From Hexactinellida sp. DTS-2022 (Eukaryota; Porifera; Hexactinellida), in the NCBI GenBank assembly GCA_028753945.1, contig JAPNXP010000017.1, positions 1,302,001-1,366,000 on the forward strand: 64,000 bases of DNA. The letters run 5' to 3'. Shown in pieces: positions 12,533 through 58,500 of this stretch. The number at the start of each line of letters is the position of its first letter. Positions within the stretch are counted from its first letter, which is position 1. The translations under genes were made by a program, and so were the position numbers. The notes beneath the pieces are model-generated. The model saw only the letters and a program-made list of their open reading frames with translations, was not told the origin of the DNA and did no database searches.

Positions 12533-12533
12533 C

Positions 12534-25260: not shown

Positions 25261-25261
25261 T

Positions 25262-26191: not shown

Positions 26192-26238
26192 GAGGGGTTC
26201 ATCGGGAGAGTCGAGATGATACCCCTAGTATTGGATAT

Positions 26239-26928
26239 ATGACTCAATCTTATCCAGAATATTCGCATATTATTTTGGAATCACGTGAACCTTCAATACA
26301 ATTCGACCAAGACTTTGTTGCCTTGTGCAAGTCAGTGGAAACACCTAAATTATCTGTTGAAGTAGGAAAAGTTAGATGTCAGGCCTTACTCGATAGTGGA
26401 GCTAGTGTTAGTTTAATCTCAGAAAATATGTCTAACAAGTGTTCTAACTCAATTTCAAGAATCCAGAATGCTAGAAAGTTGCTCACTGCTACAGGTGACG
26501 AGATAAATATGATGGCAGAAGTTTGTTTGGAATTATCTATTGGTGGACTTCAATGTTCACAGGAGTTTATTGTAGCTTCACCATTAGTGGAGGATTGCAT
26601 ATTGGGAATGGATTTTCTGGCAAAACACCGAGTAGATATTAATTTTGAGTTAAAAACTATTAAAGGTCCAACACTGGGAACAGTCATGTTTGATAACCCA
26701 AAATTTTATAGAGAGTGCAAGTTTACCTCAAATAATATCTGTCCAGTTCATTCAGAACATTGTTTTGAAGAAACTACAGTTAACTCATCAGATGAAAGAG
26801 ATAGTGATGATTGGGAGTGTCACGGAGTTGTTCCTGATTACCGAAATATACTGGAATATGAGCTACCCCATGGCCTACTTAACCCTCGTCTGGCTAGGAA
26901 TGTAAAATTGAAACTGAAAGTTAATTGA
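26239..26928 (+). CDS. pol: Aspartic protease part of pol
   Basis: Retropepsin-like: ALLDSGASVSLIS carries the catalytic DSGA and DCILGMDFLAKH is the typical downstream flap/ILG motif. It lies in the -1 frame relative to gag. The last about 17 residues are encoded by the inserted foldback, so the true linker to RT is lost. Confidence 0.85.
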   Translation: MTQSYPEYSHIILESREPSIQFDQDFVALCKSVETPKLSVEVGKVRCQALLDSGASVSLISENMSNKCSNSISRIQNARKLLTATGDEINMMAEVCLELSIGGLQCSQEFIVASPLVEDCILGMDFLAKHRVDINFELKTIKGPTLGTVMFDNPKFYRECKFTSNNICPVHSEHCFEETTVNSSDERDSDDWECHGVVPDYRNILEYELPHGLLNPRLARNVKLKLKVN

Positions 26929-27772
26929 ATTTCAATTGAAAGTGAAAGTGAAAGTGGGGTTTTTCTATTTATACCTTTTACCCCAAGCCAGCCGAGGGTT
27001 AATATACGGCTAGATATGTCACCGAGAAGGCCATAAAACGAGAAGGCCAGTTTCAAATTTTCATTTTAGGATAAACTATGCCTCCTATTGTTGTTATTTG
27101 GGTTGTATATGGGGTAATCAACCATTGCGAGTTCATTAGAACCACTTTTGAGAATCTCAGATTTGTGGTTAAGCTGTTTAGGTGCCATTTAATGATGACA
27201 CCACAAATATACAAAAATGTAAAATTCGAGTCTAAAGAACTGCGAGAAAATGAAAATAATTTGCTAATATACTTAGAATACATTTTCCGAATATATAATG
27301 AGAATGAATATATATAAACCAGCAATTATAAACGTTTTATGTACAAAAATAGTAAGTTTAAATTCGGATACTACTTGTATTTTAGCATGTGGTTGCTTAA
27401 TAATTTTTAAATTTTTTTAAAATGTCGCCATTTTGTGATTTAGTAGTCTTTGGGGTATGAAATATATCCCTATATTAGTATTCCTATTATAAAATTATTA
27501 GAAAATAGGAAGAAACTGAAATTTATGATATTTGAAAAATTTTTCATTTTACCATAAATTGTTACCGTCATCATTAAATTGCACCTAAACAGCTTAACCA
27601 CAAATCTGAGATTCTCAAAAGTGGTTCTAATGGACTCGCAATGGTTGATTACCCCATATACAACCCAAATAACAACAATAGGAGGCATAGTTTATCCTAA
27701 AATGAAAATTTGAAACTGGCCTTCTCGTTTTATGGCCTTCTCGGTGACATATCTAGCCGTATATTAAGTAGG
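26874..27772. mobile_element. Foldback element in pol (899 bp)
   Basis: The right arm read in complement begins CCTACTTAATATACGGCTAG. The left arm is the same sequence but split at TTAA by another insertion. The arms are about 205 bp and surround a 370-bp AT-rich centre. CCATGG flanks both sides (26868-26873 and 27773-27778). The open frames inside are mirror copies of arm sequence and not genes. Confidence 0.85.
26883..26998. mobile_element. TTAA-flanked MITE nested in the foldback arm (116 bp)
   Basis: Ends CCCTCGTCTGGCTAGG and, in complement, CCCTCGGCTGGCTTGG. TTAA is duplicated at 26879-26882 and 26999-27002. The other arm has an uninterrupted TTAA at this point. TTAA targets are typical of piggyBac transposons. 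Confidence 0.85.
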
Positions 27773-27778
27773 CCATGG

Positions 27779-29437
27779 CTACCCATCGTGGAGGACGATT
27801 TCATGGATATAATTAATGAATATAAAGACTTATTTTCATCTGTTCCCGGTATTGCAAGGATAGAAGAGTTCCAAATTAGAACAGACAACAACGCTGGCTC
27901 GGTTAGGATTCCCCCCAGAATGGTACCCCAAGCTTATCAAGAAGAAGTAACCTCACAAATAGAAGAAATGTTAAGGAGAAAGGTCATCAGAGTCTCCAGT
28001 AGTTCTTGGTTGTTTCCTCCCGTTATGGTAAAGAAGAAAGATGGTTCTCTCAGATTCTGCATTGGCTATCGAGGATTGAATAAAGTTACATCTAAAGACG
28101 CGTATCCACTTCCCCTTCCTGATCAAGCCCAGGATAAATTGCATGGAATGAAATATTTCACAAAATTGGATCTCAATTCCGGTTATTGGCAAATTCCAAT
28201 TAGGGAAAGTGACAAACAGAAAACTGCCTTCTCCCCTGGGCCTGGGATGGGGTTATATGAGTTTAATGTATTGCCATTTGGGCTGACTGGAGGGCCAAGT
28301 TCTTTCCAACGAATGATGGATGAAGTGTTACGTGGTCTCGAAAAGCTTAAAGATAATTTTATTGACGACATATTGGTCTTCTCACCGGATAAAGTATCAC
28401 ATCTGAATGCACTTAGGAAAATATTCGACAGGTTGCGGAAATACAATTTGACATTAAGAGGCAGGAAATGTGAGATAGGAAGGAGCAAAGTAACCTACTT
28501 AGGCCATACCTTTTCAATTGCAGGAATGGAGCCGCAGATATCTAAAGTGGAATCTATAAATAGTTGGGCTCGTCCTAGTTGCAAAAAGCAAGTCAAGCAA
28601 TTTTTAGGACTAGCGAGTTACTATAGGCGTTATATTCAGGATTTCGCAACAATAGCAGATCCATTGAATCGGTTACTCAGATCAGAAGTAGCTTTCGTTT
28701 GGGGTAGTCAGGAGGAAGCAACCTTTATGAAGTTAAAACATATACTAACTTCATCACCTGTTTTACAGTGCCCCGAATTTAGCAAACAGTTCGAATTGTA
28801 TACAGATGCCAGTGGGACCGGTCTAGGAGCAGTCTTAGAGCAGGATGGGCATGTTATTGCTTACTATAGCAGAACTTTGCGAGATGCGGAAAGGAATTAT
28901 AGTACTATTGAACAAGAATGTCTAGCTATTGTTGAGTCACTCAAACGCTTCCGTCACTACCTAATCGGAAGACGGTTTGCTATAATTACTGACCATAAAC
29001 CATTGGAGTGGTTACACACTCAAAAGGCTGTAGGACGATTATGGCGATGGGGTGTGTTAATACAGGAGTACGATTTTGATATTATACATAGAAGAGGTAA
29101 AGAAAATATCAACGCCGATGCATTATCACGTTCACACGATGAAAACAGAGAGGAAAGTTGCTCTGCAACCAAAGTAATACTAGGTCCTGACTTTGAAGAA
29201 TTGAGGAAGCAACAGTTAAATGACAGGATAATAGGGAGAGTCATATTTGAAATGGAAGCCGTACCTAGAAAAGAACAATTTATCGGACGTCTGTGGAATA
29301 GTCAAGACTTTAATCGATTCAAACAAATTCAGTCTCAGCTCCTATTACACAATGGAATATTGTTACGAAATTATAAAGTAGAGCCTTTTTCAAACCTACA
29401 TTGTGTAGTAATAGTTCCAGATACAATGAAACAATAA
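27779..29437 (+). CDS. pol: Reverse transcriptase and RNase H of Ty3/gypsy element
   Basis: The open frame begins inside the foldback arm (27710); element sequence starts near 27779. RT motifs: MVKKKDGSLRFCI, KLDLNSGYWQI (first catalytic Asp at 28169), FNVLPFGLTGGPSSFQ and FIDDILVFS (28358-28384). RNase H: LYTDASGTGLGAV, TIEQECLAIV, TDHKPLEWL and INADALSR. All catalytic positions I can check are intact. The YIDD box has Phe instead of Tyr. The frame stops at TAA 29435-29437 within the pol reading frame. Confidence 0.92.
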   Translation, partial: LPIVEDDFMDIINEYKDLFSSVPGIARIEEFQIRTDNNAGSVRIPPRMVPQAYQEEVTSQIEEMLRRKVIRVSSSSWLFPPVMVKKKDGSLRFCIGYRGLNKVTSKDAYPLPLPDQAQDKLHGMKYFTKLDLNSGYWQIPIRESDKQKTAFSPGPGMGLYEFNVLPFGLTGGPSSFQRMMDEVLRGLEKLKDNFIDDILVFSPDKVSHLNALRKIFDRLRKYNLTLRGRKCEIGRSKVTYLGHTFSIAGMEPQISKVESINSWARPSCKKQVKQFLGLASYYRRYIQDFATIADPLNRLLRSEVAFVWGSQEEATFMKLKHILTSSPVLQCPEFSKQFELYTDASGTGLGAVLEQDGHVIAYYSRTLRDAERNYSTIEQECLAIVESLKRFRHYLIGRRFAIITDHKPLEWLHTQKAVGRLWRWGVLIQEYDFDIIHRRGKENINADALSRSHDENREESCSATKVILGPDFEELRKQQLNDRIIGRVIFEMEAVPRKEQFIGRLWNSQDFNRFKQIQSQLLLHNGILLRNYKVEPFSNLHCVVIVPDTMKQ

Positions 29438-30823
29438 TTCCTTGAGGGGGCACATGATGAAGCAGGACACCAAGGAGTGGAAAGAACACTAGATCGTTTG
29501 AAAAAAATGGCCTATTGGGTTGGTATGTCAACTACAGTGAATGAATATGTTCACTCATGCGACAAGTACCAAAAAGTCAAGCCATCACTTCCTACTCAAG
29601 CACCCTTGCTAAATACTCCATGTGGAAGGCCTCTACAGATGATGCAAGTTGATGTGTTAGAGGTTCCTCTCAGTTTAGAGGGAAATAGGTATTTACTAGT
29701 GGTAGAAGATACATTTTCAAAATGGCTAGAGGCTTATCCAATGAAAAATCAGAAATCGGAAACCATCACTAATCTATTAGTTCAAACCTTCTCTAGGTTG
29801 GGGATTCCAGAATATGTTCATTCAGATCAAGGAACAAATTTTGAATCTGCATTGTTAAAAGAGACTTGTAGAGCATTGGGGATACACAAGACACATACTT
29901 CTGCTTATCACCCCCAAGGAAACTCATTAGTTGAAAGGAGCAACCGAACCATCTTACAAATGTTGAGATGTTATGTGGAGGAGAGTTGGGAATGGGAGAA
30001 GTACTTACCTTTAGTTTTATACGCTTATCGTACAACAAAGCATGCCACTACTAAGGTTACGCCTTTTCAGCTCATGTATGGACGTGATCCTTTGGGATTT
30101 TTCCAAACGGAAGATTCTGCAACACATGATCCAACTTCATATGAGACATTTCTTCGTAAGAAAATGGCTACATTGAGAGATTTTGTTGAAGGTCACACTA
30201 TCGAGGCACAAAGTCGCCAAAAGGAGTTCTATGATGAAAGATCTCATCTTTCTAAATTATCACTTTTCAAGACTGGTGATGATGTGCTGTTGTCTATTCC
30301 ACATAGCGGAGTAGCTCGTAAGCTGAGAGATAGATGGGAAGGAGGATGGAGAGTCTTTGAAGTAAAAGGACCTCTCAGCTTAGAAATACGAAATACAGAT
30401 GGGCGAAACAAGTTAGTTCATGTAAACAGACTTAGACCTTACGTTCAACGGGAAAAATCAATAGATTCAAACACACAGCCAATCGAGTGTGAAATGACAT
30501 CGCCGCTGTCCCACTCAACTTTAGAGAGACCTAGATGGAACAACCTTAGCGAAACTCCAAATGAGGAAATTCATAATCAGTCCGGCAGAATATCCACATT
30601 ACCGGCGGAAACTTCCAGTTTCAACAGATCATGTAACGATTCCAACCTCGGAAACATGAATTCATCGATACAAGGCGATCAGGCGAATTCATCAAACCTT
30701 TCTATTAATTTGAATGGCAATGCTCTGAATCCAGTCAACACTAGCACGCCAATAAAAAGTGCAGGACGACCACAAAGGACAAGAAAGTTGCCAACTAAGT
30801 TTGGTGACTATGTGCTAAACTAA
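29438..30823 (+). CDS. pol: Integrase of Ty3/gypsy element, after an in-frame stop
   Basis: Same frame as RT, separated only by one TAA. Zinc-binding part: HDEAGHQG, then CDKYQ where CxxCQ is expected, so the second Cys is Tyr. Core: QVDVLEVP (Asp), HSDQGTNF (Asp) and QGNSLVERSNR (Glu), the DDE triad with about 35-residue spacing. The C-terminal segment has a GPL motif near KGPLSLEIRN like GPY/F integrase modules. The damaged zinc finger and upstream stop suggest this copy is not functional. Confidence 0.88.
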   Translation, partial: FLEGAHDEAGHQGVERTLDRLKKMAYWVGMSTTVNEYVHSCDKYQKVKPSLPTQAPLLNTPCGRPLQMMQVDVLEVPLSLEGNRYLLVVEDTFSKWLEAYPMKNQKSETITNLLVQTFSRLGIPEYVHSDQGTNFESALLKETCRALGIHKTHTSAYHPQGNSLVERSNRTILQMLRCYVEESWEWEKYLPLVLYAYRTTKHATTKVTPFQLMYGRDPLGFFQTEDSATHDPTSYETFLRKKMATLRDFVEGHTIEAQSRQKEFYDERSHLSKLSLFKTGDDVLLSIPHSGVARKLRDRWEGGWRVFEVKGPLSLEIRNTDGRNKLVHVNRLRPYVQREKSIDSNTQPIECEMTSPLSHSTLERPRWNNLSETPNEEIHNQSGRISTLPAETSSFNRSCNDSNLGNMNSSIQGDQANSSNLSINLNGNALNPVNTSTPIKSAGRPQRTRKLPTKFGDYVLN

Positions 30824-39335: not shown

Positions 39336-42300
39336 CTACACGCTATCAGAGCTGACAGAGTCGTTTAACTGCGACAGAGTTATCCCAGCCAAATGCTCTG
39401 CACTGATGCTGGGCCCGAGGTCTGACTCGTCTGTGAATTGGAATTTAGCTGTCGGGTGCGTGGGACTGGCCCTTAGCGCGGCCAGTTTGTACAGATGGTT
39501 GCTACTGACGGACAGAGAGAGGGGCAGGTGTTCAGTCCCTAGCACATCTTCTATCAACACAGACCCCTGGTTGTTGGTGGTGCTATAGTCGCTGTACATG
39601 TCAGCTCTCGGGCTAGCCACACGGTCGCTGTGTGAGTGGCTGGGAGAGTATATGATGACGTCATCAACACTCGTGTCGCCAGACTTTATGGTACACCTGT
39701 TGCGGTTGAAGAAAGCTAGGTTTGATAGCGTAGCAACCAGGCCGGGCTTAGCGGCGCCAGAAGGAATGTAGTACCTGGCGCTGTTGCTGTTCCTCGCGGA
39801 CTCGTGCTCCGACAGAACCTGCTCCACCTTCTCGTAGTCCCCCACCGCCAGAGAGGAGCTCTCGCTAGCGCACCTAAGCGCGCGAGGGCAGTCCGGCATC
39901 CTGGGGAGGGGCTGCGAGGACTTGGGCAGCCTCCCCTCCTGAGCTCGCTTGGCGGTATCAGTGAACATGCGGGATACATTGACGTACTCTCTGCTCTTAG
40001 GAATCCGTTTGATGGAAGTGTATATAGCGAAGCTCTCGGGTGTGAGCGTGTTGTAGAAAATCGTTATTTTAGAAAGCTCTCGATAGCTCCTGCAAGCAAT
40101 AAGGACCAGCACCAGAATAGTGCAGGCCGCTATGAGTAGGAGCGATAGGAGGGCGCTGCTAGTGGCAATGAGAGCAGTCAGGTAATCCGGTGACGTCACA
40201 GCTGAGATAGTAACTTCTGATTCCAACACGTTATTTCCAGCCGAGTCGGTTAATACTATCTCTGTCAGTGTTAGAGTGTTAGTGAAGTTAACTACAATCT
40301 GTATATAATCCGTGCTAATAGGATACTCAAATGTGAGTACACTGTGTGCAGTGAGGTAGGGGGGGACAGCACCAGGGGAGTGTACCGTTATAGATACAAT
40401 AGGAGAGTCAGTTGTGCTGAAGTGGAATAGCTGTATGGTCTTAATGCTAGCGGGTTTGTAAAAGGCGAATGAGAGAGGGAGACCTGCCGGGTGATGCGAG
40501 GAGATCCATTTGTAGCACTCTGTGTTGGTACAGTCTGGTGATACAACTTCTTCAACACCTTAATAGAGTCAGTATTATAGATCGATAAGGGAGAGTTTAA
40601 TGGAACGTACAAATGTAATATGTATATAATAACCAAATGCATCAAACTACGTACAGAATATTAATATAATGAAAGGAGTGTAATCGGGGACATATTAAAG
40701 AGATGAAATTACTTATCGGTCAACACCTTTTTAATGTATTTCAGGCATCGACAAGAAATAAATTCACCTTTGCGAAGCCGGGTTTTTATATTAAATAGGT
40801 GTTGGTCGGTATACTAGTATATTACGTATATGTAATCCTCAAATTGTTGTCTACTGAGTAATAACTAAGGCAGTTAATTCAAGAATATAACTTAAATAAG
40901 GCACTCACCGTTATTCAACACTCCTTTATCTCCGTACAAATAGCCATACTCCACTCCGCTACTCTCAGCATTAAGGTTGTCTGGTGTCGCTACTCTCACC
41001 TGCATTAGGTTATGCCTGCTGATGGGATAGGAGAGGACGGGAGGGAGGCAGCCCACGAGCTGTATAGACACACAGCTCTCCGAACCAACTGCTCCATAGC
41101 CAAATACCTATTGTTATAGACAGGTAACTCAATTCATTGCAATGCATTATAGACCAGGGGTTCTCAAACTTTTTACAAATAATCATAACTGTCGATCCCT
41201 CTGTAGGCACTAGGCAGTACATTAGAACCTCGTTAATACGAACACAAGGGGACCGTCGAAATCTGTCGTATAAACCGGAACCATGTGAATGCATTTGTAT
41301 ATGCTAGGGCCTAGGAAAATTTGACTTTGTTCGCCTAAATCGATATTTCATCTTTGCTCGTATTAATTAACGAGTCTACTCTACTGTATTAGTCTGTATA
41401 TCACTTCGGAGCCTCTAAGCCCAACTACAAACAGTAAATTACTGATGTGGCAATAATACTGAGGTACTTTTGAAACGGCTTCGCGGTGCCCAGTTTGAGA
41501 ACCACTGTTATAGACAAGCATACTGTTTGCCACAAGTAATACAAAATATTAGTAGAATTACAGAAGCTAATTACCAGCCATAACAGTAATTAGTGTACAC
41601 TTATGAACCTTAGTACAGCTGCAATGCGGCATTTGTTGTTATAATTAGCTAATTTCTCGCGAATCTACCTGAGCTGAACTCTAATTGAAATTTTAATTCT
41701 AAAATAATTAACCCACTAACCACAATGTGTTAATAAATTAAATAATACCTAAACATAATTAACCTATTTTCTACTCAGTATAGTACCTAATCCAGGCGAT
41801 AACTTTTTGAACTTAATTGATTATAAATTAAAAAGTGTACTTATTAATTGTTAATAACCGCAGTAATATACTGTTGTATCGAATGTGTATATGTATAAAG
41901 AATGCTGGTACTCACAGAGAGAGAGCTGGCTAGAATCGGCCGCTGTAACCTGATCAGCTGATGCTCTCCCCGCCCGACCCGCGCCAGGCCGCCAGCAGGC
42001 AGCGACGAGTTATATAGAGTAGCGATGTCTACGGACAATAGCTCTGTGTCCAGAGCAGTGTAGGCGAATGAGTAAGCAGTCAGACTCTCAGAGTCCGAGT
42101 TGCGAATCCCAATCCCAGTCACCCAGTATGTCTGCTCTAAGACAACTGTCAGAACTGAATGGGATGGGAATTTCAGTCTACAGTGGAGTGTGTTACTGGA
42201 CTGTGGATACGGAGCACAAGTGACGTCACATAACCCCGCACTGTTGTTGATCTGGTACAAGACAGGTTGGTCACATTCAGTTGCGTGTATTCGGATGAAA

Positions 42301-42347
42301 GAGATCAACAAAACTAAACTCACAATTACAATCTTATTGTAATACAT
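39336..42347 (-). CDS. Discoidin-receptor-like membrane protein without kinase domain
   Basis: Three exons: 42347-41916, 41107-40909, 40558-39336, with GT/AG borders and consistent phases (617 residues). Signal peptide at 1-22. Next is a discoidin (F5/8C)-like module whose end, ESCVSIQLVGC, spans exon 2. A second beta-sandwich region follows, ending in LTEIVLTDS, then one membrane helix (SSALLSLLLIAACTILVLVLIAC) and a tail of about 230 residues. This order, DS, DS-like, TM, matches discoidin domain receptors (DDR1/2), but the tail has no kinase. It does have tyrosine motifs (EYVNV, DYEKV, DYSTTN) and Pro-rich stretches. DDRs bind collagen; whether this protein does is unknown. Assignment to the DDR layout is inference from order and a few motifs. 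Confidence 0.6.
40713..40811. mobile_element. MITE of the CGGTCAACACCTTTT family
   Basis: Ends ATCGGTCAACACCTTTTTAA and, in complement, ACCGACCAACACCTATTTAA. It sits in intron 2 of the DDR-like gene. Related copies lie near 44229-44332, 56467-56556, 57791-57899 and 58249-58366. Confidence 0.65.
41155..41507. mobile_element. hAT-like element with a nested pogo-like MITE (353 bp)
   Basis: Ends CAGGGGTTCTCAAACTTT and AGTTTGAGAACCACTG, exact 8-bp duplication TTATAGAC at 41147-41154 and 41508-41515. Inside, about 41218-41393, a second unit begins TTAGAACCTCGTTAATACGA and ends AACGAGTCTACTCTACTGTA. It lies in intron 1 of the DDR-like gene. Confidence 0.85.
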
Positions 42348-43502
42348 TGCATTGTATATGCAGAGATAGGATTATAAATAAAATACCTTTCAAATTTCAA
42401 CTAATTTTAGTATTGACCTATATAAATAGGATAATCCTATTGGAAGTGTATGAGCAGCAATTAAGCACTATTAGTACGTGCAGTGATATAGTGAAATAAA
42501 ATAAACTTATAGTATAGTTGAGATAACCATTACACAACAAAGTGGGTAAGTTAGCCACCTGTACATGCACTCAAATAGCAAACTCATCAGCTGCAACAAT
42601 GTGTCTATGGAATGTAAGAATCTGCTTGGCAATAACATTTCTAAATACAGTAGGACATGAGGGCCTTGTAAGCCAAATGTTAGAAATAATCACGCAATTT
42701 GAGGCAAGATTTGATTCAGGTGGTTTAATAAATGAAATTTAATGCTGCGGCCGTTAGAAATACCAAGTCAAAACCCGTTAATTCGAACTCTCAAGGGAAA
42801 AATAAATTTTCATCGAATTAGCGAATGTTCTAATTAGAGGATTTTAACTATAGATACAAATCAAAATAGCATTTTAACCAATAGAATTTGGATGAAAAGG
42901 CTTTGAAGGAAACTGAAATAGAGTACTTATTAACCGTGTTCCTACTAACGAGGTTCTACTGTATCAATATTTATTAATTTCTTAGCCAATTTCACAATAT
43001 CGATAGTCCCTGCGTCCATTTATTTGGATTGGTTTTAACTCGATGATATACCGCTGAGAACTCGAAATGAATCAAATTTTAGTGTTTTTTTAACAATCAA
43101 TAATATATTATTCTCTACCAAGAATAATTCACGAATTATTGAATAATCATGAATTATAGTCAACTTCGTAAAATAATGTGTAGTATAGCATATTAGCATA
43201 TGTATATTGGTTAACACATTTAATCAATATATGTACGTAACTTGATTATAATTCCAAGTAAACATTAGAGATAAACTCTACAGCTAGTTCAATCCAAGGG
43301 CACAAGGCATAAGTGTAATCTTTAAATAACTCGTAGTATAATATAAGTATACAAATAATAACTAATATACTTGCCAAATAAGCTAATTGAGTTATTAACG
43401 AATTTCTCTGACAAGCACAATAATAAAGAATATATCAAATATAGTACAAAAGCTAGGAACCCGCTCTGTGACTTGCAGTCTGTGATGTGATTGGGAGATA
43501 GG
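42348..43502. other. Intergenic, worn repeats
   Basis: Between the DDR-like gene and the 3' end of DYNC1LI. A degenerate pogo-like MITE spans about 42775-42960 (CCGTTAATTCGAAC on one side, CTAACGAGGTTCTACTGTA on the other). No gene recognised. Confidence 0.45.
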
Positions 43503-46500
43503 CTATAAAGATGAGTCTAGTGCTGTGTTGTTGGTGGTTGAGGACGATGCGTTTTGGCTCACATTGTTGGGGGAAGTACCCTTCTTGGTAAGGAGGGCAT
43601 TGAAGAACTGGGAAATCATAGAATCTCCAGGCTCTCTCGGGTTCACAGCAGCACCGGCTGGGACCTAATGAACCCATTAATATCCGTGGTATTGTACTAT
43701 ATATATATTGGAGGAGAAGTTTAGTACTCAATTTTGCCTGTAACATTATAAATAAAGCAAATTAGTAATAAAGGTCATCCAAAGGACATGTGACCGTTAT
43801 ACACAGGTTGATAATAATATGAGAAATAATTTGTGAGATCTATTCTACGTGGCAGTTATAGACAAGTTCTACTGTAATAATTTAATACCCTTGATGGTGT
43901 GGTTGTAGAACCAGCGCCTCGATCTTTGGACTAAAATAGAATTAATGTTTGAAATAAATTATGATAAGTTCATTAGGGTTATAACTACATTTGGTATTAA
44001 TAACAAAGTGGTACATACAATGTTGGGCTGACTGAGAACAGGAGGGGTGCCTATGACTCTGTGAGGCGTCTTCTCTGATCTCTCGATATTGGCCTAATTG
44101 TGGAAATAATTAATTAACTGGATGCAGTGTGACAGCAGCTAATTGGGAATAACCGAGTCGACAATATAACTTAGCCTGGATATCTCAGTTATAGGTATTA
44201 AGAGTTTACTTAGCTTAAAGAGTTTACTTATATATCGGTCAACACCTTTTTAATATAAAATCAACTTCTCAAAGGTGAATTTCTAGTGTTAGATAAATGA
44301 CCTTGGAAGGGCACGAAAATTGGCCGATATAATAATCAATCCTAGTTACTGAAACTTGTGTTGATGGCATTGAAAAATTGCTCTTTGTTGTTGCTGTTGT
44401 TGTTCCATAGAAATAATACTTCAAGTATAAGAAATACATTAATATGTATGTATTTGCTTTTAACAGAAATTAACAAAAATAGCAAAAAGTGAGTTTCGAA
44501 TTGTCCCCGGTCACGTGGCCTCACGGATGCTTACTAGAGTCAGTACTGTAGGGTAGGATTTATTCATATAAGTATAATATAATAGTAATAGGTATGTTGA
44601 TTAGCTAGATATTGTGGTAAATTAGATGTTTGTAAGTGGGTAGGTGAATTAGGGCCTAATTGTATGTAAAACTTTTGAACCAACCACTTGCTTTTGGCTC
44701 AAGTGGAGACCGTTGGGGACTTGGCTCACAATTCTAATAGATTGCAACGAGTATTTATATGTCACAGAGTAAAGGATAAAATGTAATGGGTTGATGAGAA
44801 GTCTGTGAAGCCTGCCACAATTTAATGAGTATTAATTATTCTAAGTAGTATGCAATTACAATAGGAAAATGCTACGTATTTGATACAGTATATCGTTGGA
44901 ATAGTGGATTGTATCAAAATATATAAAGGTACTCCACGTCCACAATACAGGATTAATGCTAGACATTAGTGTTGTAAAAGGTCGGAAATTTTCCGAAAAC
45001 TTGCAAAAAATTGCCAAATTTCCAGAAATTTTACATCAAAAATTATTAAATATACCTAGTTTTTTTAATTTTGATAAACCATATATATATAATGAAGAGT
45101 TGTTACTGTGTGCTTGTTATTTTCCTCAAGACAGTCGAAGTCGAACTTAAGTAGCACAAAAATTTAGGCAATTTCAAATAAAGTTCCCTAAGCATAATTT
45201 GAAATATGTAATATTTCCAGAAATTTCCGGAAATTTCCATAGAAAACAAATTTTTTGGAAATTTACAACACTACTAGGCATAAACAAAATGTAAATATAT
45301 ATTTACTGTAGACTCTCGCTTATTCGAACACCCCCGAAATTATTAACCGGAGTCATGCAATAAACCTTGTACTCCTTAACTGATATTTCGCTATGCTTGC
45401 TTGTATTAACGAGATAATACTATATACGTAATTAATAAAATTTAGAATAATGTATACATAGACCTGAAGGTTATACTTCAAATTGGAAGTTAATTTAGGT
45501 TAATTTCTGCATAATTAATCCTGAGATAATAAAGTAAACTGACCTCTACATCAATCAAGAAGAGTTGGTCCTCATCACACTCCGCATAATCTTGATCCAA
45601 TTTAGGCTAAACGACAAAAGAATTAGCTAACAATTCAATTAAAACATAATATTTATACAAGCTAATTAGTAAATTAAAGGTTTACTTACCAACAATTAAT
45701 TAACAATTACAGATACATACCTTAATAAATCCCGGTCTCATGATCACGTCTTCGAAAGATTTATCAACAGAGATTGTCCGCAAATGGTCATTAAGAAATG
45801 CAATCTTGTTCCCATTGTCCCATCCGGAAGGTCTAAATTTTTGTAGAAAATTTATTTAATTCAAATCAATTAAAATAAATGAGGGAAAGTAAGTCTTGGC
45901 TTTTGTTATAATTATAACAGAAAAAAGAAAAGTTAAACCGGAAACCCAAGACACTGGATGTTGTTGTTTGTGTTTTAGAAATAAAATTTCCATCCAATCA
46001 ACTAATAAATGATATCAAGAAAAATACACAAATGCGCTTATTAAGAATTTTAATAGAAATCATTAACCATCATAATAATAATTAAGTCAAGATTAGGAAA
46101 GTAGAATGTAAATAAATGCTTTTTGGTCGAAAAGAATGTATGATACGTATATCATCTATTTTCTAGGCAAACGGATCATGAGTACATCATAATCAATTCT
46201 AGGACATAAAGAATAAACAAATAGAATAGTAATATATAATTATATAAAATGCTCGAAGGTTGAACGCTAATCATATCAACTATACATCATGTTGGTATTA
46301 TTATTAGAAAGTTGATGCAAGTAAATTCGTTAATAGATTTCCTAAGAATCAAAGAATGCTATGATAGATGTATTTAATATTAATCGTAATTAATAATCTC
46401 AATACTTTATAGAAAGATATATAAACAGGAGTATTGAAGTTGGTTTATATTTATTTATAAATTCAGCTATGAAGATCTGGATCACACAAAATAGAGCAAT

Positions 46501-49500
46501 ATTATTTATACTACAGTTAACAACAATCTGTATTATTGGGAGGGGCGCGATAGCAAGTGAGACATGTACGAAGGAAGGAATCACCAGAACAGTTAACTAC
46601 ACTAACGCTATACAAATTTGTTACAGAGATGGACTCCACAAGAGTTGGCTGTATGTGTGTGGGGATAATTGGAACATGTCTTCACTGGACGTATACTGCA
46701 GAGAAGCTGGCTACTTAGGAGGGGCGCTGAGTGGCAAGAGAAGTATCGAGGCTGTGTCGGGAATGGGAGGGAACAGTTCGAAACTGATGCTATACAACTG
46801 CACTGGATATGAGAAATCCCTGTTGGAATGTAACCACAGAGTTACCAATAGTGATTGCTCGTATGCGCGAGTAAATACGAGTGAGAATTGCAGAAAATGC
46901 CAAACAGATAGCAACTGCAACGGAGGGTACTGTGTGAATGGCACTAATTGTACGGGGGGAGTTTGTATTCAAGGAAAATGCGAATACAGCGGAGAAACAA
47001 ATTTAACCTCAACGCTAATAATTCCATTCGCTACAGTGGGAACTGTCGTATTCATAGTTTCGGTGATAACTGGTGGGTTTGCTGCTCTTAATTTCTATCG
47101 GAGAATTAAAAGAAGAAACTCACGAGACACAGTTACAACCGATATCCAACTACACGTGTTGACAGTAAAAGATTATTCCGTTGAAGCTAATATAAGGTTT
47201 ATTGGTTTTGATTCTAAAGAAATTTTCACAAACTATTGGAGCATCACTGATCACGAAACAATAACAGATAATGCACCAGAAGAAGAGACGTATTTGGCAC
47301 CAAACGACGTTCTAAACAGAGACGAATTCAGTTCTGTAGAAGGCGAGCTGTACGGAGTGTTAGTGGAAGGAGAAGTCACGAATTATGAGAAGTATGATAG
47401 GCTAAGTCAAATAAAGATCGAAGTGTATGAAGAACTAGCCTACAAATATAAGAATATCTTTCCAGACTATGAAACACAAATAAATGTAAACAAAAGTTCT
47501 AATAGAAACACATTTGTTTACATAGAGCCTCCCACCAGTCTCCCTCAGCTGGAGAACGTATTCGAGCACTGTTTCAACGAAATCAACAGAGGAGAGATAG
47601 AGGTGGGAAAGGAGTTCGCATCCGGTCAGTTCGGCGTTGTGTACCGGGCTGTGTACCGCACCCAGAGAGGAGACATTCCCGTCGCCATCAAGACCCTGAA
47701 AGAGACCTCCGACGCAGACACCAAGGTAGCATTCATGCGAGAAGCCGCCATCCTAGCTCAGTTCCAGCACCCGAATGTGTTGCGACTGATCGGAGTGCTC
47801 ACTGCGCAGCAGCCGTACATGATGGTCACAGAGCTGCTCAAGACGGAGCTGGCAGAACTCTTGCTTAAGTTCAGAGTGCTGCTAACCGCCACTAGCAGCA
47901 GCAGCAGCAGCAGCAGTGGAGCCAATCTGACTGCTCAGAAACTCAATCTCCCGAACCTGCTGCTCCGGTTTGCTCAGGAGATCTCTGCCGGGATGGAGCA
48001 CCTGTCCGGGAAACACTTTATCCACCGAGACTTGGCCGCTAGGAATGTGTTGGTAGCGAAAGACCTGTCTTGCCGCATCGCAGACTTCGGCATGTCTCGG
48101 GAGCTGGTCTCCGACAGCGAGTACTACACCTCGTCGGGAGGGAGGATCCCTCTCCGCTGGACAGCCCCCGAGGCTGTCTTCTACCAGAAGTACTCGGAGA
48201 AGTCGGACGTGTGGTCGTTCGGCATGACTCTGTTCGAGATTTGGTCCCTGGGAGGGAAGCCGTGGGGCAGTGAGGCCACCAACGAAGAGATAGTGGAAGG
48301 TCTCTCCGAGGGCCGGAAGCTGTCCCCTCCCACTGGCTGTCCCCGAGACGTGTACTCTGTGATGGTGGACACCTGGAGAATGGACGCTTCCTCCCGTCCC
48401 ACGTTCTCTGCTATTCTCCGCCTGCTGACCGACATCCATCTCTCTGTTGCCCCTCCTGTCTCTCCCGAGACAGACCCTGCTCTCTGTCTGGGGAATGACC
48501 CTCTGCTCTCTAGGGACCACTTTCCTGATCTACAGACGGTTCATTGACAGACCATTCCAATCTCAGTTCTCATTAATTCCTCTTTTTAAACTATTCTGAA
48601 ATATTTTATGTATTATTATTTCCTTCCATATCATAAGTTTAATCAATAGCTGTACCATTTCCAATCGACTTCTAAAGTTAATCCATTATTAATATTCATA
48701 GAAGTGACAAACAGTGGCATGGGGGTCTAGGCGCCCTACACTCTATAGCCTCCTTATCTTGCTCGAGAAATCCAATTACAACCGTGCCCTCAGATAGGGT
48801 AACTGATCCCACCACCTGTGAGATTATCCTACATACCTCCACGAATAGTGGATAAAATAGACAAATCTATCAATACTATAAAGTACAATTGTTGTTTGTG
48901 AGTGTGTTTGTTTGTTTGTCCGGATTGTATTAAAGAGCTAGGGGAATAGAAACCGCATTTATAATTGAGATAGAGATTAACTTCCAACGGTTATTAGAAG
49001 TAAACAAGCATGCTGAACACGAATTTCGCATTTAAAGAATTCTAATATGAATATTTATTGTTGTTGTTTACAAAAATAGGTAAACAAATTATTCACAATT
49101 TAAAATGAACATAGAGGTTTGATTCCAAATGTAACATATTTATACATTTTTAATGAAAATATTTATTGTCTATTGAAAAAAGCGAGACCGCGTAGCGGTT
49201 GAGTTATCCATCACGAAGCAACCGAGACCGAAGGGAGAGTAGTATTGAAAGAAAACAAATTTATCCGAATAACCTTTGTAGACCTGGCTTAGTAGTTTAC
49301 TAAATATAACTACAGTAAACCTTTAGAAAGTGAACACCCTGGGGACCAGCCAAAACGTTCATTTTTGAGAGGTGTTCACTTTCATGATCTATCATAACGT
49401 GTGTCTAAAGCAATGGGGAAAATTTGGGACCGAGAAAAAGTGTTCATATTGCGGAGGTGTTCACTTTTGGAGGTTTTACTGTATGACTAGATAAAGTTTG

Positions 49501-52500
49501 AACAGTATTTTCAGTTGGAAAGACAGGTTATTGTAAAAAGAAAATACTCAACTAATATACATAAAGTTGGCATAATATGTAAATCACAAAAGGTACAATC
49601 AATGCACCGTCTGCAGATCAGGAAAGTGGTCCCTAGAGAGCAGAGGGTCATTCCCCAGACAGAGAGCAGGGTCTGTCTCGGGAGAGACAGGAGGGGCAAC
49701 AGAGAGATGGATGTCGGTCAGCAGGCGGAGAATAGCAGAGAACGTGGGACGGGAGGAAGCGTCCATTCTCCAGGTGTCCACCATCACAGAGTACACGTCT
49801 CGGGGACAGCCAGTGGGAGGGGACAGCTTCCGGCCCTCGGAGAGACCTTCCACTATCTCTTCGTTGGTGGCCTCACTGCCCCACGGCTTCCCTCCCAGGG
49901 ACCAAATCTCGAACAGAGTCATGCCGAACGACCACACGTCCGACTTCTCCGAGTACTTCTGGTAGAAGACAGCCTCGGGGGCTGTCCAGCGGAGAGGGAT
50001 CCTCCCTCCCGACGAGGTGTAGTACTCGCTGTCGGAGACCAGCTCCCGAGACATGCCGAAGTCTGCGATGCGGCAAGACAGGTCTTTCGCCACCAACACA
50101 TTCCTAGCGGCCAAGTCTCGGTGGATAAAGTGTTTCCCGGACAGGTGTTCCATCCCGGCAGAGATCTCCTGAGCAAACCGGAGCAGCAGGTTCGGGAGAT
50201 TGAGTTTCTGAGCAGTCAGATTGGCTCCACTGCTGCTGCTGCTGCTGCTGCTAGTGGCGGTTAGCAGCACTCTGAACTTAAGCAAGAGTTCTGCCAGCTC
50301 CGTCTTGAGCAGCTCTGTGACCATCATGTACGGCTGCTGCGCAGTGAGCACTCCGATCAGTCGCAACACATTCGGGTGCTGGAACTGAGCTAGGATGGCA
50401 GCTTCTCGCATGAATGCTACCTTGGTGTCTGCGTCGGAGGTCTCTTTCAGGGTCTTGATGGCGACGGGAATGTCTCCTCTCTGGGTGCGGTACACAGCCC
50501 GGTACACAACGCCGAACTGACCGGATGCGAACTCCTTTCCCACCTCTATCTCTCCTCTGTTGATTTCGTTGAAACAGTGCTCGAATACGTTCTCCAGCTG
50601 AGGGAGACTCGTGGGAGGCTCTATGTAGTATAATCTATCCTGCATTGTGTAATACTCATTCTCGTTCTGACCTAGGGCTACTGGTTCCAGTGAGGCTATA
50701 CGATCGTATATCTCACAATTAACTCGATGATACTGCTTATATAGATCTGAGTCACCAATTTCCCCCTCTACCATCCCATCGTAGAGAGAGTTATCCTCTA
50801 AGGAAAGACTGCAGTACGACTCAACCTCCTGGTTACACGCCCCCTGGTTAGCTAGCACGATCTCGTCATACAGGGGTTCCTGAATGCAGGCAGAGTGCTC
50901 CGCTCCGTTGGATCTCACAAAACTACTTTGGTTAGTGATTGAAGAGGACAACTGGAATGAAGTAGTGAAATTAAATTCAGCTCTAGTGACAGCTAAGTTA
51001 GGAATTTCATAGTTCTCTACGGCAGCTTTTACACGCTTTAACTTCGAAATTGCGATTATAAACACACAGATAAGAGTAAACATTGCAGACAGTGCTATGG
51101 TGATAAGCAATCCGCCAAATAACGATACGAGTAGGATGAGTAGAAGCGTGGTTGAGTCTTTGAGAGGTTCGCTTGTTGAATTGGCAATGTCGATTAATCT
51201 GGTTACAGAAACAGGATTATATAAAGCTGTACTGCGGGAGGTAGAAATGTCGGACAAGTTCGGATCAGAAGTAGCACTAGTGAAAGAGGTGTTGACAAGA
51301 GGGTAAGTTATACTTTGTGACTCAGTTTCGCAACATTCTCCTGAAAACCCTGGAGTACACACACAGCTACCAATATAACAATAACCGTCATTGCTACACT
51401 CATCACAATTAGGCACTATGCATTCATCTGCACAGTCGTTTGAAGGGGTGTATAGAGGCAAGAGGCATTCCTCAGTGGTAATACTGTAACTACAGTCTAG
51501 CAAGGTATCTTCACTCCCATCACACACAACATCCTCCAACTTATGCAGTCCTCTTCCAATCGGTACTAAACTGGAGTCAGGAGTGAAGTTATCACTGACC
51601 CCAGCATAACTGTTCTGTCTACAATACACAAGTGTGTTATTCAAGTCCCAGGAATCACCAAAGCAGATAAATGTCCATTCCAGTTCATTATCATCGGCTA
51701 TATCTACACACACCTGCAGTGTATACCTGAAGAAGCAAATCGAACAGGACCTGACTCTCCTCAAGGCACCTCTCTCTTCACAAGACTCAGCTTTAACATT
51801 GCACAGAAATACCGAACACAGGAGAGTTAGCATACAAATAATCTTCATATTAATACGCATTTTTTCACAATTATTGATTAAGTTTCAGACTGACAAGATA
51901 TTTATATATTATTTCAGATAAATGGTACATACTTTGCACTTGTCTTCAGTGCAAAGTATGCACAACATCCAGAGGTTAATTAGTACTATAGTATTATAAT
52001 AGGTTAATTACTAATTATATGCCAACGACCTAGCAATAATATCAAACTACTCGGTAATACAACTAGTACATTGACACTCTAGGTAAGGGAGGCAATAAAT
52101 AGTTGTTAAATGGCTAAACAGAACTTAGATATTACAATAAATCTAATTAGAATTCCATGAACATGGTAAGAACGAATATAACGATGTCATTCTATGAGCT
52201 CGAAAGGATACTTATCCTGTAAATTGAATAAATACTTGATATGCAAGTAGTGGGGTAATTAGTAAGCTAGTAGCTACTACAATTATAGTCAATTAGTTGA
52301 TTATCGGTATATAATTGAAATTTCATGGGTAATTAATTAGAAGTTGCGTAACATCTACTATTTTAGAAAACAAGTATATTATTACGCTAATAATTGAAGA
52401 GTTTAGAAAAACAAATAGGTGGGAGGAGAGAATATTCTAACTGAACTTGTCAACAAAAATTATTAAAAAATTATATATCTTTCCTAGTTTGATTGTTTTT

Positions 52501-55500
52501 CAGTCGTTTCATTTGAAATTGTAATATAATGAGAGGACGTGTGCTATACCATTATCGACAGCCGACTCTGCATAATGAGTCATTTTACAGGAACAGAAAC
52601 ATACGAATGGAAGGTAATACAAAATATTTCGGTTAATTGGGTCAAAATTTGGTCATTCGAAGAAAATTTGGTTACTATCACAAAATTTTATTTTAATTAA
52701 TTCACACGGGAAAAATTCCGTGTTATAGAACTAGGTCAAATCCTGTTGGCTTGAATAAATAACAGTAAAACTCAGTTTGTAAAATAGACTTAATTTTCAA
52801 ACTAATTTTGCAAGTTTTAATGAATATATATGTTAAAGTGTATCCCGTTTAGATGATACAAAGCAAAAATACTCTTTTCTTTGGTGAATTTGGGTTGAAA
52901 TAAGCTAAATTATTTTGAACCATTCCATAGAGATAATGAAATATGTCGTATTTTAATGATCATAGTAGATAAGTAGGAATTAATAAACGTCAAAAAGAAT
53001 AATAACAAATTAGACCTTAGGAACTCGTATTACACAGTAGTATTTTACAGTCCTATCATAAACGAACAAGGAGATTAAACTTAAGGAGCAACGATTAAAC
53101 AGATCAATGCACCGTCTGCAGATCAGGAAAATGGTCCCTAGAGAGCAGAGGGTCATTCCCCAGACAGAGAGCAGGGTCTGTCTCGGGAGAGACAGGAGGG
53201 GCAACAGAGAGATGGATGTCGGTCAGCTGGCGGAGAATAGCAGAGAACGTGGGACGGGAGGAAGCGTCCATTCTCCAGGTGTCCACCATCACAGAGTACA
53301 CGTCTCGGGGACAGCCAGTGGGAGGGGACAGCTTCCGGCCCTCGGAGAGACCTTCCACTATCTCTTCGTTGCTGGCCTCACTGCCCCACGGCTTCCCTCC
53401 CAGGGACCAAATCTCGAACAGAGTCATGCCGAACGACCACACGTCCGACTTCTCCGAGTACTTCTGGTAGAAGACGGCCTCGGGGGCTGTCCAGCGGAGA
53501 GGGATCCTCCCCCCCGACGAGGTGTAGTACTCGCTGTCGGAGACCAGCTCCCGAGACATGCCGAAGTCTGCGATGCGGCAAGACAGGTCTTTCGCCACCA
53601 ACACATTCCTAGCGGCCAAGTCTCGGTGGATAAAGTGTTTCCCGGACAGGTGCTCCATCCCGGCAGAGATCTCAGTACTGAACTTCAGAAAGAGAGGAGA
53701 AATATCAACAGTTTTGTGAGAGTCTGAAGCTTTGACACTTAATAAGAAGTCCCTCAGCTCCGTCTTGAGCAGCTCTGTGACCATCATGTATGGCTGCTGC
53801 GCAGTGAGCACTCCGATCAGTCGCAACACATTCGGGTGCTGGAACTGAGCTAGGATGGCGGCTTCTCGCATGAATGCTACCTTGGTGTCTGCGTCGGAGG
53901 TCTCTTTCAGGGTCTTGATGGCGACGGGAATGTCTCCTCTCTGGGTGCGGTACACAGCCCGGTACACAACGCCGAACTGACCGGATGCGAACTCTGTCTG
54001 TAGATTTATTTCCTTTCTATCGATCTCGTGCATGCAGTGTCCAAACACATTTTCCAATTCAGGGAGGTTATCTGGAGGCTCAATAAAACTAGCTCCTTCA
54101 GCATACTCGTTGGATATTATGCTATCAGATCGGGGGACTTCGTAGGGAGAAACATCGGGAACGAATGGATTATACCCAGGCAGACACTCGTACAAGCTGG
54201 AATCTCCAACTTCTCCCTCTACCATGCCGTCATACAATCCGTTATTAAGCATATAGTACGCATCTCTACTCGGATCGCATAAGGTGTCAACGTACTCACT
54301 GTCTAATTGTGTAGGCTTAACCAATGCGTAGTCTATGTTAGTTTTGTACTGCTCGGAAATACTGGCATAGATGTTAGAAGTCATGAACTGAATGTTTCCG
54401 TTTTGAAGTTCGATGTCATTGGAGTACTGCTGTATAGAAGAGGAGTCATAAATAACTGGTAATGTACAGTAATTAGAATCCTCATCGGAATCTTTCTTTT
54501 TCCGATGACGGGAACAGCAGCACACGAGGGTAATAATAAGAAGCACAATAGAGACAATGCTACCAAAGATAACGACCACAATTACAGGGAGTACAATTTG
54601 GAGAGATTCGAAGGAAGACTTAAGACTTGAATCGTCATTGGAAGGATTCTCAGTTGGAATTGTATCTATCGATTTTGTATGTTTCGTTTCACTCTGTGAG
54701 TTTAAAATAATAGTGGAACAGTTGCACTATCAACTGGTGAATTCGTGATACTCATGATGGGAACAGTTGAACTATCAACTGGAGAATTCGTGATACTCAT
54801 GGTGGAAACAGTTGCACTATCAACTGGTGAATTCGTGATACTCATGGTGGAAACAGTTGCACTATCAACTGGTGAATTTGTGATACTCATGATGGGAACA
54901 GTTGCACTATCAACTGGTGAATTCGTGATACTCATGGTGGGAACAGTTGCACTATAAACTGGTGAATTCGTGATACTCATGGTGGAAACAGTTGCACTAT
55001 AAACTGGTGAATTCGTGATACTCATGGTGGGAACAGTTGCACTATAAACTGGTGAATTCGTGATACTCATGGTGGAAACAGTTGCACTATCAACTGGTGA
55101 ATTCGTGATACTCATGGTGGGAATAGTTGCACTATAAACTGGTGAATTCGTGATACTCATGGTGGGAACAGTTGCACTATAAACTGGTGAATTCGTGATA
55201 CTCATGGTGGAAACAGTTGCACTATAAACTGGTGAATTCGTGATACTCATGGTGGGAACAGTTGCACTATAAACTGGTGAATTCGTGATACTCATGGTGG
55301 GAATAGTTGCACTATAAACTGGTGAATTCATGATACCCATGGTGGAAACACTTGCACTATAAACTGGTGAATTCGTGATACTCATGGTGGAAATGGTTGC
55401 ACTATCAACTGGTGAATTCGTGATACTCATGGTGGAAACAGTTGCACTATCAACTGGTGAATTCGTGATACTCATGGTGGAAACAGTTGCACTATCAACT

Positions 55501-58500
55501 GGTGAATTCGTGATACTCATGGTGGGAACAATTGCACTATAAACTGGTGAATTTGTGATACTAATGGTGGAAACAGTTGAACTAGTATCAACTGGCGAAT
55601 TTGTGATGGGTAGAATAGACTCATTGGTGCAATGGTCTGATGGTTTATATTCCGTTAATTGACATTTAGAAGTGGTTGTACCAAAATCACAATTGAGAAG
55701 CGTTTCTTCATCTCCCTCACAATCAACATTTTCGATTTTAGTTGTACCACTAAAATATTTGAATGTAGTTCTATAGGAACCAGTATCTGTTGATGGCACG
55801 TTTTCAGCCCTAAGGTAATCTAGTTGTCCGCAGTAGACATTGACACTATTTACATCCCAATCCGAATCATAGCAAATGTAAGTCCAGTCTAAAGAGCCAG
55901 TAACATCCGAACAAATTTGTATAAGATAAAGAACACCCCACCGAATTTTTAATCTTAATTCCCCTTCCTCGCACTCTGATTGCACGTTTACTCCAAAGAG
56001 AGTTAATACGAGAATAATGAGAAATAGAAGCTTCATGTCTCAGTAGTTAATTATCAATAAATAAAGTTATTTGATTTTGATTATTTTTAAGAAAGTTATA
56101 TATTTGTGAAACTAGTCCTATTAAGACATTCGATATGCTACATACTAAGATAATGGGAAATTCTAAGATTTAGAGAATAGTGAGTTTACAAGCATATTAT
56201 TAGTTATTTATGGAACATTTCATAGAATTGAGCTGCAGTAGAGGGGAAACATAATGTTAGATAACAATTAATAATGACAATAATCGTCAATATATGATAT
56301 AGGATCGCTAAATTGATCAGGTATAATATTAAAATTAATAAATATTTTTAGAGGAGAAGCAGAGTTACTTTGAGATTTTCAAAATAATATAACAGTAAGA
56401 AAAGTGGGAAATACTATAAAATTTGGAATATTTTTAATATAATACGGACTCAAAACAATGAATAATATCGGTCGAAAGGTTATTTTTTTATTTTTTTATT
56501 TATGAAACCTTGGAAAGTCGGGTTTTTGTATTGAAAGGTATTGGCCTACAAATAAGGCAATTGACTATTAACAAACTACTCACATGAATATGCTGTCTCT
56601 CTCCACCACAGATGCAGTGTAGGAGAACGGCAGTCTGTACAGTTTGTGTACAATATACTGGTACAACAGAGAAATGTTCTTGTCTTCTTTAACTGACGTG
56701 TAAAAGAGAGCCGCTCCATCTACAGGGAATAGACAAAGGTAAAGCAAGACAGGTGTCAATATGTATAATATTTGTTCTTATTCTAATCAATTTACTAACA
56801 ACAAGGTTAATATAAGATATGAAGAATGAACTAGGGACTAAAAGGTTTATTAGAATTTAGAACAAAATAAACAGCTCACATTTTAAACAGAAGTTCCTTA
56901 TTTTCTGCTGTATAAAATCAAAATGTTCATCTCTGTAATCAAAGTCCTTCTCCAAGTCTCCCATTACATCTGTCTACACAATACATTGTATCAACGATTC
57001 AACATTGAAACATAACTAGTATGTCTGCTCAGTGCTCACCTTGGTAACCAGAACGAGCAGAGGAATGCCGAGGTTACGAGTGAGCACGTTGTCTCCCAGA
57101 GGCAGCAGGCCGGCCTGAGAGGGAGAGGCGGCCCCGGTCTGCTGTCCGCCCGGAGATGCGATCCTCAGGCCGGGCTCCGAGGGGTCTGTGTAGCTCTGGT
57201 ACTCCAATACAACTGTAGATAGAGAACAGTTATATTTAGCAATTGTGAAGTAGACCATGCACACAATACCGTAAACTGGGGCGACTTAGGCCCATGGGTT
57301 TTAGTTTGGCCCAAGAGTTACTAAATTCAGGAAATTTTTGAAATCAATCATATGCCAAGTAGATAGGTCCAACATTAATTGATAATACATTTAAGATACT
57401 AGAATTATACTTCTATGGGCATTTTGAGCGCATATTAAACAGTGAAATTTCAATGCCAGTGTTATTTTGTGATTTTATTTGACCATTGATCCAAATGCAT
57501 TATCAATATTATAAATATCTTCATAAATAATACATTTTAATTCCCATGTTCAGAAGAGCTAGAGAAACAAAACTATATTTATCTGATTATCTTAATCTGA
57601 TAAACAGTTGATATATGTTTGAAATACATAACTAAGTTTTTGGCAAAAACAACCTTGTGGCTTAAGTCGTCCCAGTTTACGGTTCGTATTTATCAATTGT
57701 TAAGTAGACTATGCCAGCACATTTATAATATGTAGAAACTGTTTGAGCTTAATCTCTAGGGGATATATAATTGGATCTAGGAATTACTTAACGTATATCA
57801 GCCAACATTCTTCTAATGTAATTTCCATGCACTGGTAAAGTCATTTTAACGACGATTTTATATTCAAGATTGTTTGCCGATATACGTATAAGTAAGCCAA
57901 TATAATAATGTTTCGAAATAGTTGGGATTGTTGGATATTTCATATTAATTAATTAATTAATTCTAAGAAGGTTACCTTTCTCCTCTAAGTCCTTGAGCTT
58001 GCGTGGGTTTACCCCCAGTGTATCTATGAAGGCGTTAAGCATAGCTGTCCACTTCTCGAGACTCTCTAGGATGGTCCATGGTTCGGACATGTCCACCAGG
58101 ACAATGGCCAGACTCTTGGAGATAACATCTTGTTTTAAAATGAATTGGAAACTGTTTTTCAAGTCTCCATATCCGCTCACGTGCCAGAATGCCATTTGAG
58201 CCAACACATCTGTTAAAGCACAGTATTATTATAAACACATCGGATTTCTTATATATCGGCCAACACCTTTTCAATAAAAAACCTGGCTTCGAAAAAGTGA
58301 ATTATGATATAAACAATGACCTTACCAATGAATGAAAATTACATTAGAAAAGGTGTTGGCCGAAATAAGATATTAATTCCTTAAGTAATACATTAATAGT
58401 GACTTACTATGACAGTGCAAATAACGCTGGTATCGGATTTAAGTGCAAATTAAAAGATAGATTAAAACGTGTCATTTGAATTGCTATAATTAGCCAAGAT

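Follow-up and report, generated by a model that had tools for sequence, protein, structure and literature searches.

Three receptor kinase genes in intron 7 of DYNC1LI

The 64,000-nucleotide stretch analysed here, hereafter the window, comes from the sponge Hexactinellida sp. DTS-2022 (assembly GCA_028753945.1, contig JAPNXP010000017.1) and corresponds to C9:1302001-1366000 in the searched genome of 18 contigs (112.4 Mb). On its minus strand it carries the gene for the dynein light INTERMEDIATE chain (DYNC1LI, dynein light intermediate chain), which the initial annotation had misnamed "dynein light chain", and, inside intron 7 of that gene, three genes for SRCR receptor tyrosine kinases, here K1, K2 and K3 (Table 1). 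Splice-site modelling gave a DYNC1LI model of nine exons with GT/AG borders and one open frame, which stops at exon 9 and does not include exons farther downstream. The joined product of 363 amino acids matched PF05783 (E=3.9e-105) in a single stretch that spans positions 2-335 of the 471 in the profile.

The border at the end of exon 7 (56584) reads ...ATATTCAT and then GTGAGTAG, and that at the start of exon 8 (45832) reads ...AAATTTAG and then ACCTTCC. The two exons join in frame as ...DSIFI-PSGWDN, the motif FIPSGWDN being split by a phase 2 intron. K1, K2 and K3 each lie wholly within this one intron, with host exons flanking in frame, and are thus nested genes. The initial annotation had proposed three SRCR kinases in a 10.75-kb intron 7, two on the host strand (K2 and K3) and one antisense (K1), with matching phase across FxIPSGWDN, and all of this was borne out, with the exact intron borders at 45833-56583. 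The intron was also correctly singled out for its size, since the seven other modelled introns measure 613, 546, 375, 763, 66, 160 and 114 bp. From the K1 start codon to the K3 start codon (46469-56036), the nest takes up 89% of intron 7 and leaves about 1.2 kb, so that the intron is long because it houses K1-K3 and would measure about 1.2 kb without them.

DYNC1LI occupies a single genomic place, with all five matches (six candidates scored) falling within this stretch of C9. Two separate DYNC1LI loci, a possibility that had been raised at the outset, were therefore ruled out. Presumably, DYNC1LI is spliced across the entire nest.

Table 1. Coordinates of DYNC1LI, the nested kinase genes and their homogenised or repeated parts (window positions).
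Feature	Position	Strand	Basis
DYNC1LI exons 1-7	60020-59953, 59339-59269, 58722-58585, 58209-57976, 57212-57040, 56973-56880, 56719-56584	-	splice-site model, open frame, PF05783
DYNC1LI intron 7, 10,751 bp, GTGAGT...TTTAG, phase 2	45833..56583	-	splice-site model
DYNC1LI exons 8-9	45832-45721, 45606-45544	-	splice-site model, PF05783
K1, SRCR receptor tyrosine kinase, single frame, antisense to host	46469..48547 (ATG 46469, stop end 48547; open from 46397)	+	open reading frame, Pfam
K1 homogenised kinase arm, 1,029 nt, 99% to K2, ending at the stop codon	47519..48547	+	repeat search, alignment
K2, SRCR receptor tyrosine kinase, single frame, host strand	49599..51860 (open from 51884)	-	open reading frame, Pfam
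K2 homogenised kinase arm, inverted partner of K1 arm	49599..50627	-	repeat search, alignment
K3, SRCR receptor tyrosine kinase, two frames, host strand	53104..56036	-	open reading frames, Pfam
K3 transmembrane and kinase frame	53107-54726	-	open frame
K3 SRCR and repeat frame	54705-56039	-	open frame
K3 tandem repeat, 45 bp x 19.8, encoding a Ser/Thr-rich stalk	54713..55607	-	repeat search, open reading frame
K3 homogenised patch 1, 570 nt, 99% to K1	53104..53673	-	alignment
K3 kinase insert region, diverged from K1/K2	53674..53754	-	alignment
K3 homogenised patch 2, 240 nt, 100% to K1	53755..53994	-	alignment

Domain layout of K1, K2 and K3

The three kinase domains matched PF07714 (E=1.7e-79, 1.8e-79 and 3.1e-80 for K1, K2 and K3, respectively) and carry, by eye, the catalytic motifs including DFG, which identifies them as tyrosine kinase domains; kinase activity is assumed. 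Among the best 60 of 724 matches of the K1 kinase to solved structures, the top ones were EGFR and Eph kinases. With regard to the SRCR domain (PF00530; Pfam cut-off 26.1 bits), K1 scored 39.2, K3 34.6 and K2 25.2, the last value being just under the cut-off. Aligned with K2, the mature SRCR ectodomain is 37% identical in K3 and 29% in K1, with cysteines in common. Signal peptides and transmembrane segments were read by eye, without a predictor, and in K3 they are split over two frames. Taken together, each of the three genes is predicted to encode a receptor composed of a signal peptide, an SRCR domain, a single transmembrane segment, a tyrosine-rich juxtamembrane part and a tyrosine kinase. 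K3 does not form a single open frame; its frame change is located at the end of its tandem repeat, and the two frames can be joined by several GT..AG introns (e.g., of 41 or 86 nt) or through a frameshift.

Mosaic identity of the kinase halves

The K1 and K2 kinase arms are inverted repeats of 1,029 nt, 99% alike, which lie tail to tail with 1,051 nt between them. K1/K2 identity, taken over windows of 60 alignment columns, was 98-100% within the kinase, while in all three K1/K2/K3 pairs it was 28-55% in the full windows past that of the stop codon, and 20-60%, mostly below 50%, upstream of the kinase, where the outer halves are so poorly alignable that identities are background values. In K3, the two homogenised patches flank a kinase insert with an identity of only 40-62%; in the stretch leading up to the glycine loop, identity is 56-67%. 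Such patchy identity, well above that of the homologous flanks, is a mark of gene conversion.

Over 340 codons, the K1 and K2 kinases showed six synonymous differences and not a single replacement (p=0.0002 when set against site counts), and in their converted codons K2 and K3 differed by six synonymous and five replacement changes (p=0.03). Judged from these codons, the K1/K2 kinase is homogenised yet protein-constrained. Protein constraint alone was ruled out as the origin of the likeness, given that K1/K2 third codon positions are 98% identical.

A dispersed family of receptor kinases

With the K3 kinase frame as a query, at least 82 matches were found in the genome; 80 out of 248 candidates were scored, and all family counts are thus lower bounds. 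Loci were read for 30 of these matches, i.e., K1-K3 plus 27 others. Five loci on C1 were set apart as an outgroup; the kinase tree does not place them in the family, and the one scanned against Pfam (L048) is Eph-like. The remaining 25 rows, including K1-K3, were used for the identity and GC analyses; here, L026 (one stop), L040 (a short open piece) and L029 (a frame shift near its end) served as open pieces only. Besides C9, related kinases reside on C5, C6, C10, C11, C16 and C18, and, among the candidates scored, those closest to the K3 kinase are on C10 (1.38-1.42 Mb), C11, C18, C5 and C16. Pfam scans were run on one C1 receptor and on 19 relatives, out of the 22 whose loci lie on contigs other than C1 and C9; the outer domains recognised in the relatives were SRCR, EGF or none.

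The initial annotation had described a local family expanding in a housekeeping intron. Three members are indeed found inside, but with relatives on six other contigs and larger clusters on C10 and C16, the nest is, on this distribution, an outpost of a dispersed family and not a self-contained local one. The same distribution bears on whether the nest was selected for co-regulation with DYNC1LI, such as joint expression of transport and receptor genes. This is scarcely probable: the sole point in its favour is that two of the three genes share the host strand, whereas K1 is antisense, bigger clusters of the family are located elsewhere, and nested genes are so numerous in several sponge annotations that a special cause is not needed (PMC10282587).

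In the kinase tree, K1-K3 grouped together (98) and the C10 pair L026/L029 branched beside them (89), an arrangement distorted through gene conversion; when the tree was built from ten ectodomains, K2 paired with K3 (94/95, just under the star of the tool). Most of the C10 relatives are likewise open single frames, and the lack of introns in K1-K3, which touches on the question of retroposition, therefore need not date to their insertion.

Separately, a broken relative of these kinases with several stops was noted at C10:498477-499894, which points to birth and death among the members of the family. SRCR matches in the genome numbered at least 153 (150 of 247 candidates scored), many of them clustered, on C13, C15, C6, C5 and C14; at C13:1.25-1.29 Mb, SRCR units of equal score recur about 7.66 kb apart.

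Similar mosaics in other kinase groups

Mosaics like that of K1-K3 were observed in four further groups of the family, with close-paralogue groups having been chosen by identity. The sharpest conversion tract of the family belongs to the C18 pair L037/L038 (0.997 Mb), also arranged tail to tail, in which about 225 codons are 98-100% alike, while the flanks on its two sides within the same open frame, 47-73% and 51-62% alike, are homologous but diverged; they belong to the N-lobe and the C-terminal tail. The C10 pair L026/L029 was 91-100% alike along the kinase up to the frame change of L029 and mostly below 50% before the kinase; the C16 pair L041/L042 showed a diverged block between two alike blocks; and identity was patchy as well in the C10 quartet L031/L032/L035/L040. 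The longest identical runs were matched by none of 2000 shuffles in each of four homogenised pairs, in contrast to 138-752 of 2000 in four other pairs, which served as the comparison because shuffling takes no account of how uneven kinase conservation naturally is.

Two Eph-like pairs outside the family behaved differently. L050/L052 was alike along its whole length, with no mosaic, whereas in the tandem L049/L051 (C1:10.64 Mb, long open frames) about 280 ectodomain codons were alike and the kinase was diverged: 14 blocks of 20 codons at 97-100% stood between diverged flanks, with a GC content at third codon positions (GC3) of 0.66 vs 0.49. This reverse layout weakens a constant kinase with a variable ectodomain as a necessary selected rule, and conversion seems to hit wherever neighbours remain alike enough, rather than kinases by design.

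GC bias of the homogenised tracts

Among the homogenised groups, the C18 pair had the highest kinase GC3 (0.73-0.74), followed by K1-K3 (0.68-0.71), the C16 pair (0.64), the C10 pair (0.58-0.59) and the C10 quartet (0.49-0.52); in the 12 genes that lack a near-identical partner, values ranged from 0.27 to 0.62. A contrast was also seen within single kinases. Converted codons exceeded unconverted ones in K3 (192/260, 0.74, vs 30/65, 0.46; p=4e-5), L037 (191/230 vs 56/105; p=3e-8) and L038 (191/230 vs 55/105; p=1e-8), GC3 inside the tract of the C18 pair being 0.83. This rise in the converted part, present in all three genes tested, is a further mark of gene conversion, and no such contrast between blocks was detected in the full-length duplicate L050/L052 (0.46 vs 0.48). 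When the kinase was compared with the 5' part of its own gene, the GC3 excess was 0.16-0.36 in the five homogenised groups vs 0.03-0.18 in the 12 single genes (Mann-Whitney p=0.0006, one value per group).

These results were also considered in terms of a recent duplication of the kinase half, joined to different outer halves, for which conversion would be unneeded. The kinase halves are near-identical and the outer halves very unlike, as such an event would leave them, and domain shuffling is a route known for receptor kinases from the published account (PMC8662651). It is nonetheless unlikely, given that the outer halves are homologous too, as seen from the identities and common cysteines of the ectodomains; that diverged homologous DNA lies inside or beside identical tracts (the K3 insert, and the N-lobe and C-terminal tail of the C18 pair); and that high GC3 tracks the identical patches inside one kinase, a pattern that copying alone does not give.

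An assembly artefact, in which the nest was misplaced or its copies were made alike through mis-joined or mis-polished reads, appears very unlikely. Assemblies do tend to fail at near-identical repeats of 1 kb, but the window has no N, repeats of at least 60 nt within the intron are limited to the kinase copies and the 45-bp array, distinct DNA separates the copies, and comparable mosaics occur on C10, C16 and C18. Moreover, polishing should not lift GC3 in the converted patches alone.

Proposed origin of the nest

Considered jointly, the data favour, with a probability that we put at roughly three in four, a nest that is an outpost of dispersed receptor tyrosine kinases in DYNC1LI intron 7, made up of old paralogues that would have become mosaic through GC-biased ectopic gene conversion. 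In the course of events that we propose, at least one copy of a mostly intronless SRCR receptor kinase, from a subfamily otherwise found on C10 and C11, would have entered intron 7, where copies then multiplied or joined each other. Ectopic conversion between these old paralogues would overwrite stretches alike enough to pair, aided by their closeness and by the inverted, tail-to-tail arms of K1 and K2, and would halt where homology ends, i.e., at the stop codon, the juxtamembrane part and the K3 kinase insert. Third codon positions would thereby be pushed toward GC, and the likely outcome is a common kinase with differing outer domains.

Several observations weigh against this proposal of converted paralogues. 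By eye, Ala takes the place of the first glycine in the kinase glycine loop of K1, K2 and K3 alike, and K3 may be broken by a frameshift, the alternative to a small intron. In converted codons, K1 and K3 differed by five synonymous and five replacement changes (p=0.07), which leaves constraint unclear from this pair alone. The GC3 excess of the C10 quartet is modest (0.16) and not above that of two single genes (0.16 and 0.18), and four of the 12 single genes also reach a kinase GC3 of 0.57-0.62, so that some of the GC excess is common to these kinase domains in general. The ectodomain tree, whose branches are long, leaves K1 apart from K2 and K3; a single founder followed by local duplication is therefore left unsupported. 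Some of the homogenised groups may in part be recent duplicates. Lastly, the splicing of the host across the nest, the expression of the three kinase genes and any continuing conversion are all predicted from DNA.

A broader reading, which we regard as speculative and rather doubtful, is that the whole family forms a recognition repertoire, in which many different outer ends share a single signalling end. Conversion within local palindromes and tandems might then preserve a uniform kinase and leave the ectodomains (SRCR, EGF and mucin-like) free to diversify; the role could perhaps be the sensing of microbes or self, and intronless copies might seed new sites such as the DYNC1LI intron.

Other features of the window

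Elsewhere in the window, a Ty3-like retroelement with long open gag, protease, reverse transcriptase-RNase H and integrase frames was found at 25250-30820 (+), and a further reverse transcriptase fragment (PF00078) at 19670-20392 (-). A 28-bp tandem repeat of about 45-50 copies with strong GC skew occupies 16132-17551, and the long open frames through it are probably spurious. An OTU-type cysteine protease domain lies in an open frame at 10532-12541 (-). Downstream of DYNC1LI, at 39339-42371 (-), two long open frames may encode a putative secreted or membrane protein with a transmembrane segment and Tyr motifs, as read by eye; these frames gave no Pfam match. A scan for poly(A) signals counted 154 AATAAA in the window vs 122 expected, with none of 100 shuffles reaching as many, and was not used as evidence.

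Significance and comparison with known systems

The arrangement itself is of a known kind; nested genes are often common, and the nest alone changes little. What is less ordinary is the sharply bounded homogenisation of the kinase halves. The locus would offer a clear natural case in which ectopic conversion keeps one receptor half unchanged and the other half is left to drift, and the borders are so sharp that the limits of conversion show in them (the stop codon, the kinase insert and, in the C18 pair, the middle of the N-lobe). If the pattern is kept by selection, it would have given an early animal lineage a simple genomic means of building a receptor repertoire with common signalling. A further lesson is that kinase-domain trees of such families can yield a false history. 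In the open-access literature, we found no paper pairing nested genes with a dynein light intermediate chain, and none that by its title concerns gene conversion in sponge receptor tyrosine kinases.

Among sponges, the glass sponge Aphrocallistes vastus is described as having a similarly compact genome, with short introns, many single-exon and nested genes and tandem expansions, although the main text of that paper does not contain the term "tyrosine kinase" and so describes no comparable nest (PMC10282587). As reported there, nested genes amount to 2,432 in A. vastus (12.4% of genes), 3,358 in Amphimedon and 5,032 in Sycon, and to 83 in Oopsacas and 0 in Ephydatia, differences that the authors largely blame on the annotation method (PMC10282587). 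In vertebrates, members of one transmembrane protein family, the LRRTMs, lie in introns of widely used cell-biology genes, the alpha-catenins, but with a single LRRTM per host gene (PMC3933685). The human NF1 gene, which is ubiquitously expressed, comes closer in number, as one of its introns holds three active coding genes (EVI2A, EVI2B and OMGP); these passengers are all antisense and are different genes (PMC7692384). With nested genes common in several sponge annotations and three of them inside NF1, "unusual", as the nest was first called, was too strong a word for it; the initial annotation had overlooked the less ordinary feature, its homogenised kinases. In comparison with NF1, the DYNC1LI nest consists of one family, has two members on the host strand and shows apparent mutual conversion.

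With regard to conversion, the mammalian Hsp70 and histone genes are intronless paralogues in which conversion has driven coding DNA to be GC-rich between ordinary flanks. There, whole coding regions are affected, while in the DYNC1LI nest it is one half or patches. The mammalian pairs BMP8A/B, DDX19A/B and TUBG1/2, inverted or direct neighbours, are described as homogenised in part and diverged in the rest (PMC2720389). Mosaic identity and high GC3 were taken there as marks of conversion, with a significant GC3 rise in two of the three pairs (PMC2720389). Compared with these pairs, the DYNC1LI nest concerns receptor kinases of a non-mammal, involves more than two copies, and has its borders at the stop codon and around the kinase insert.

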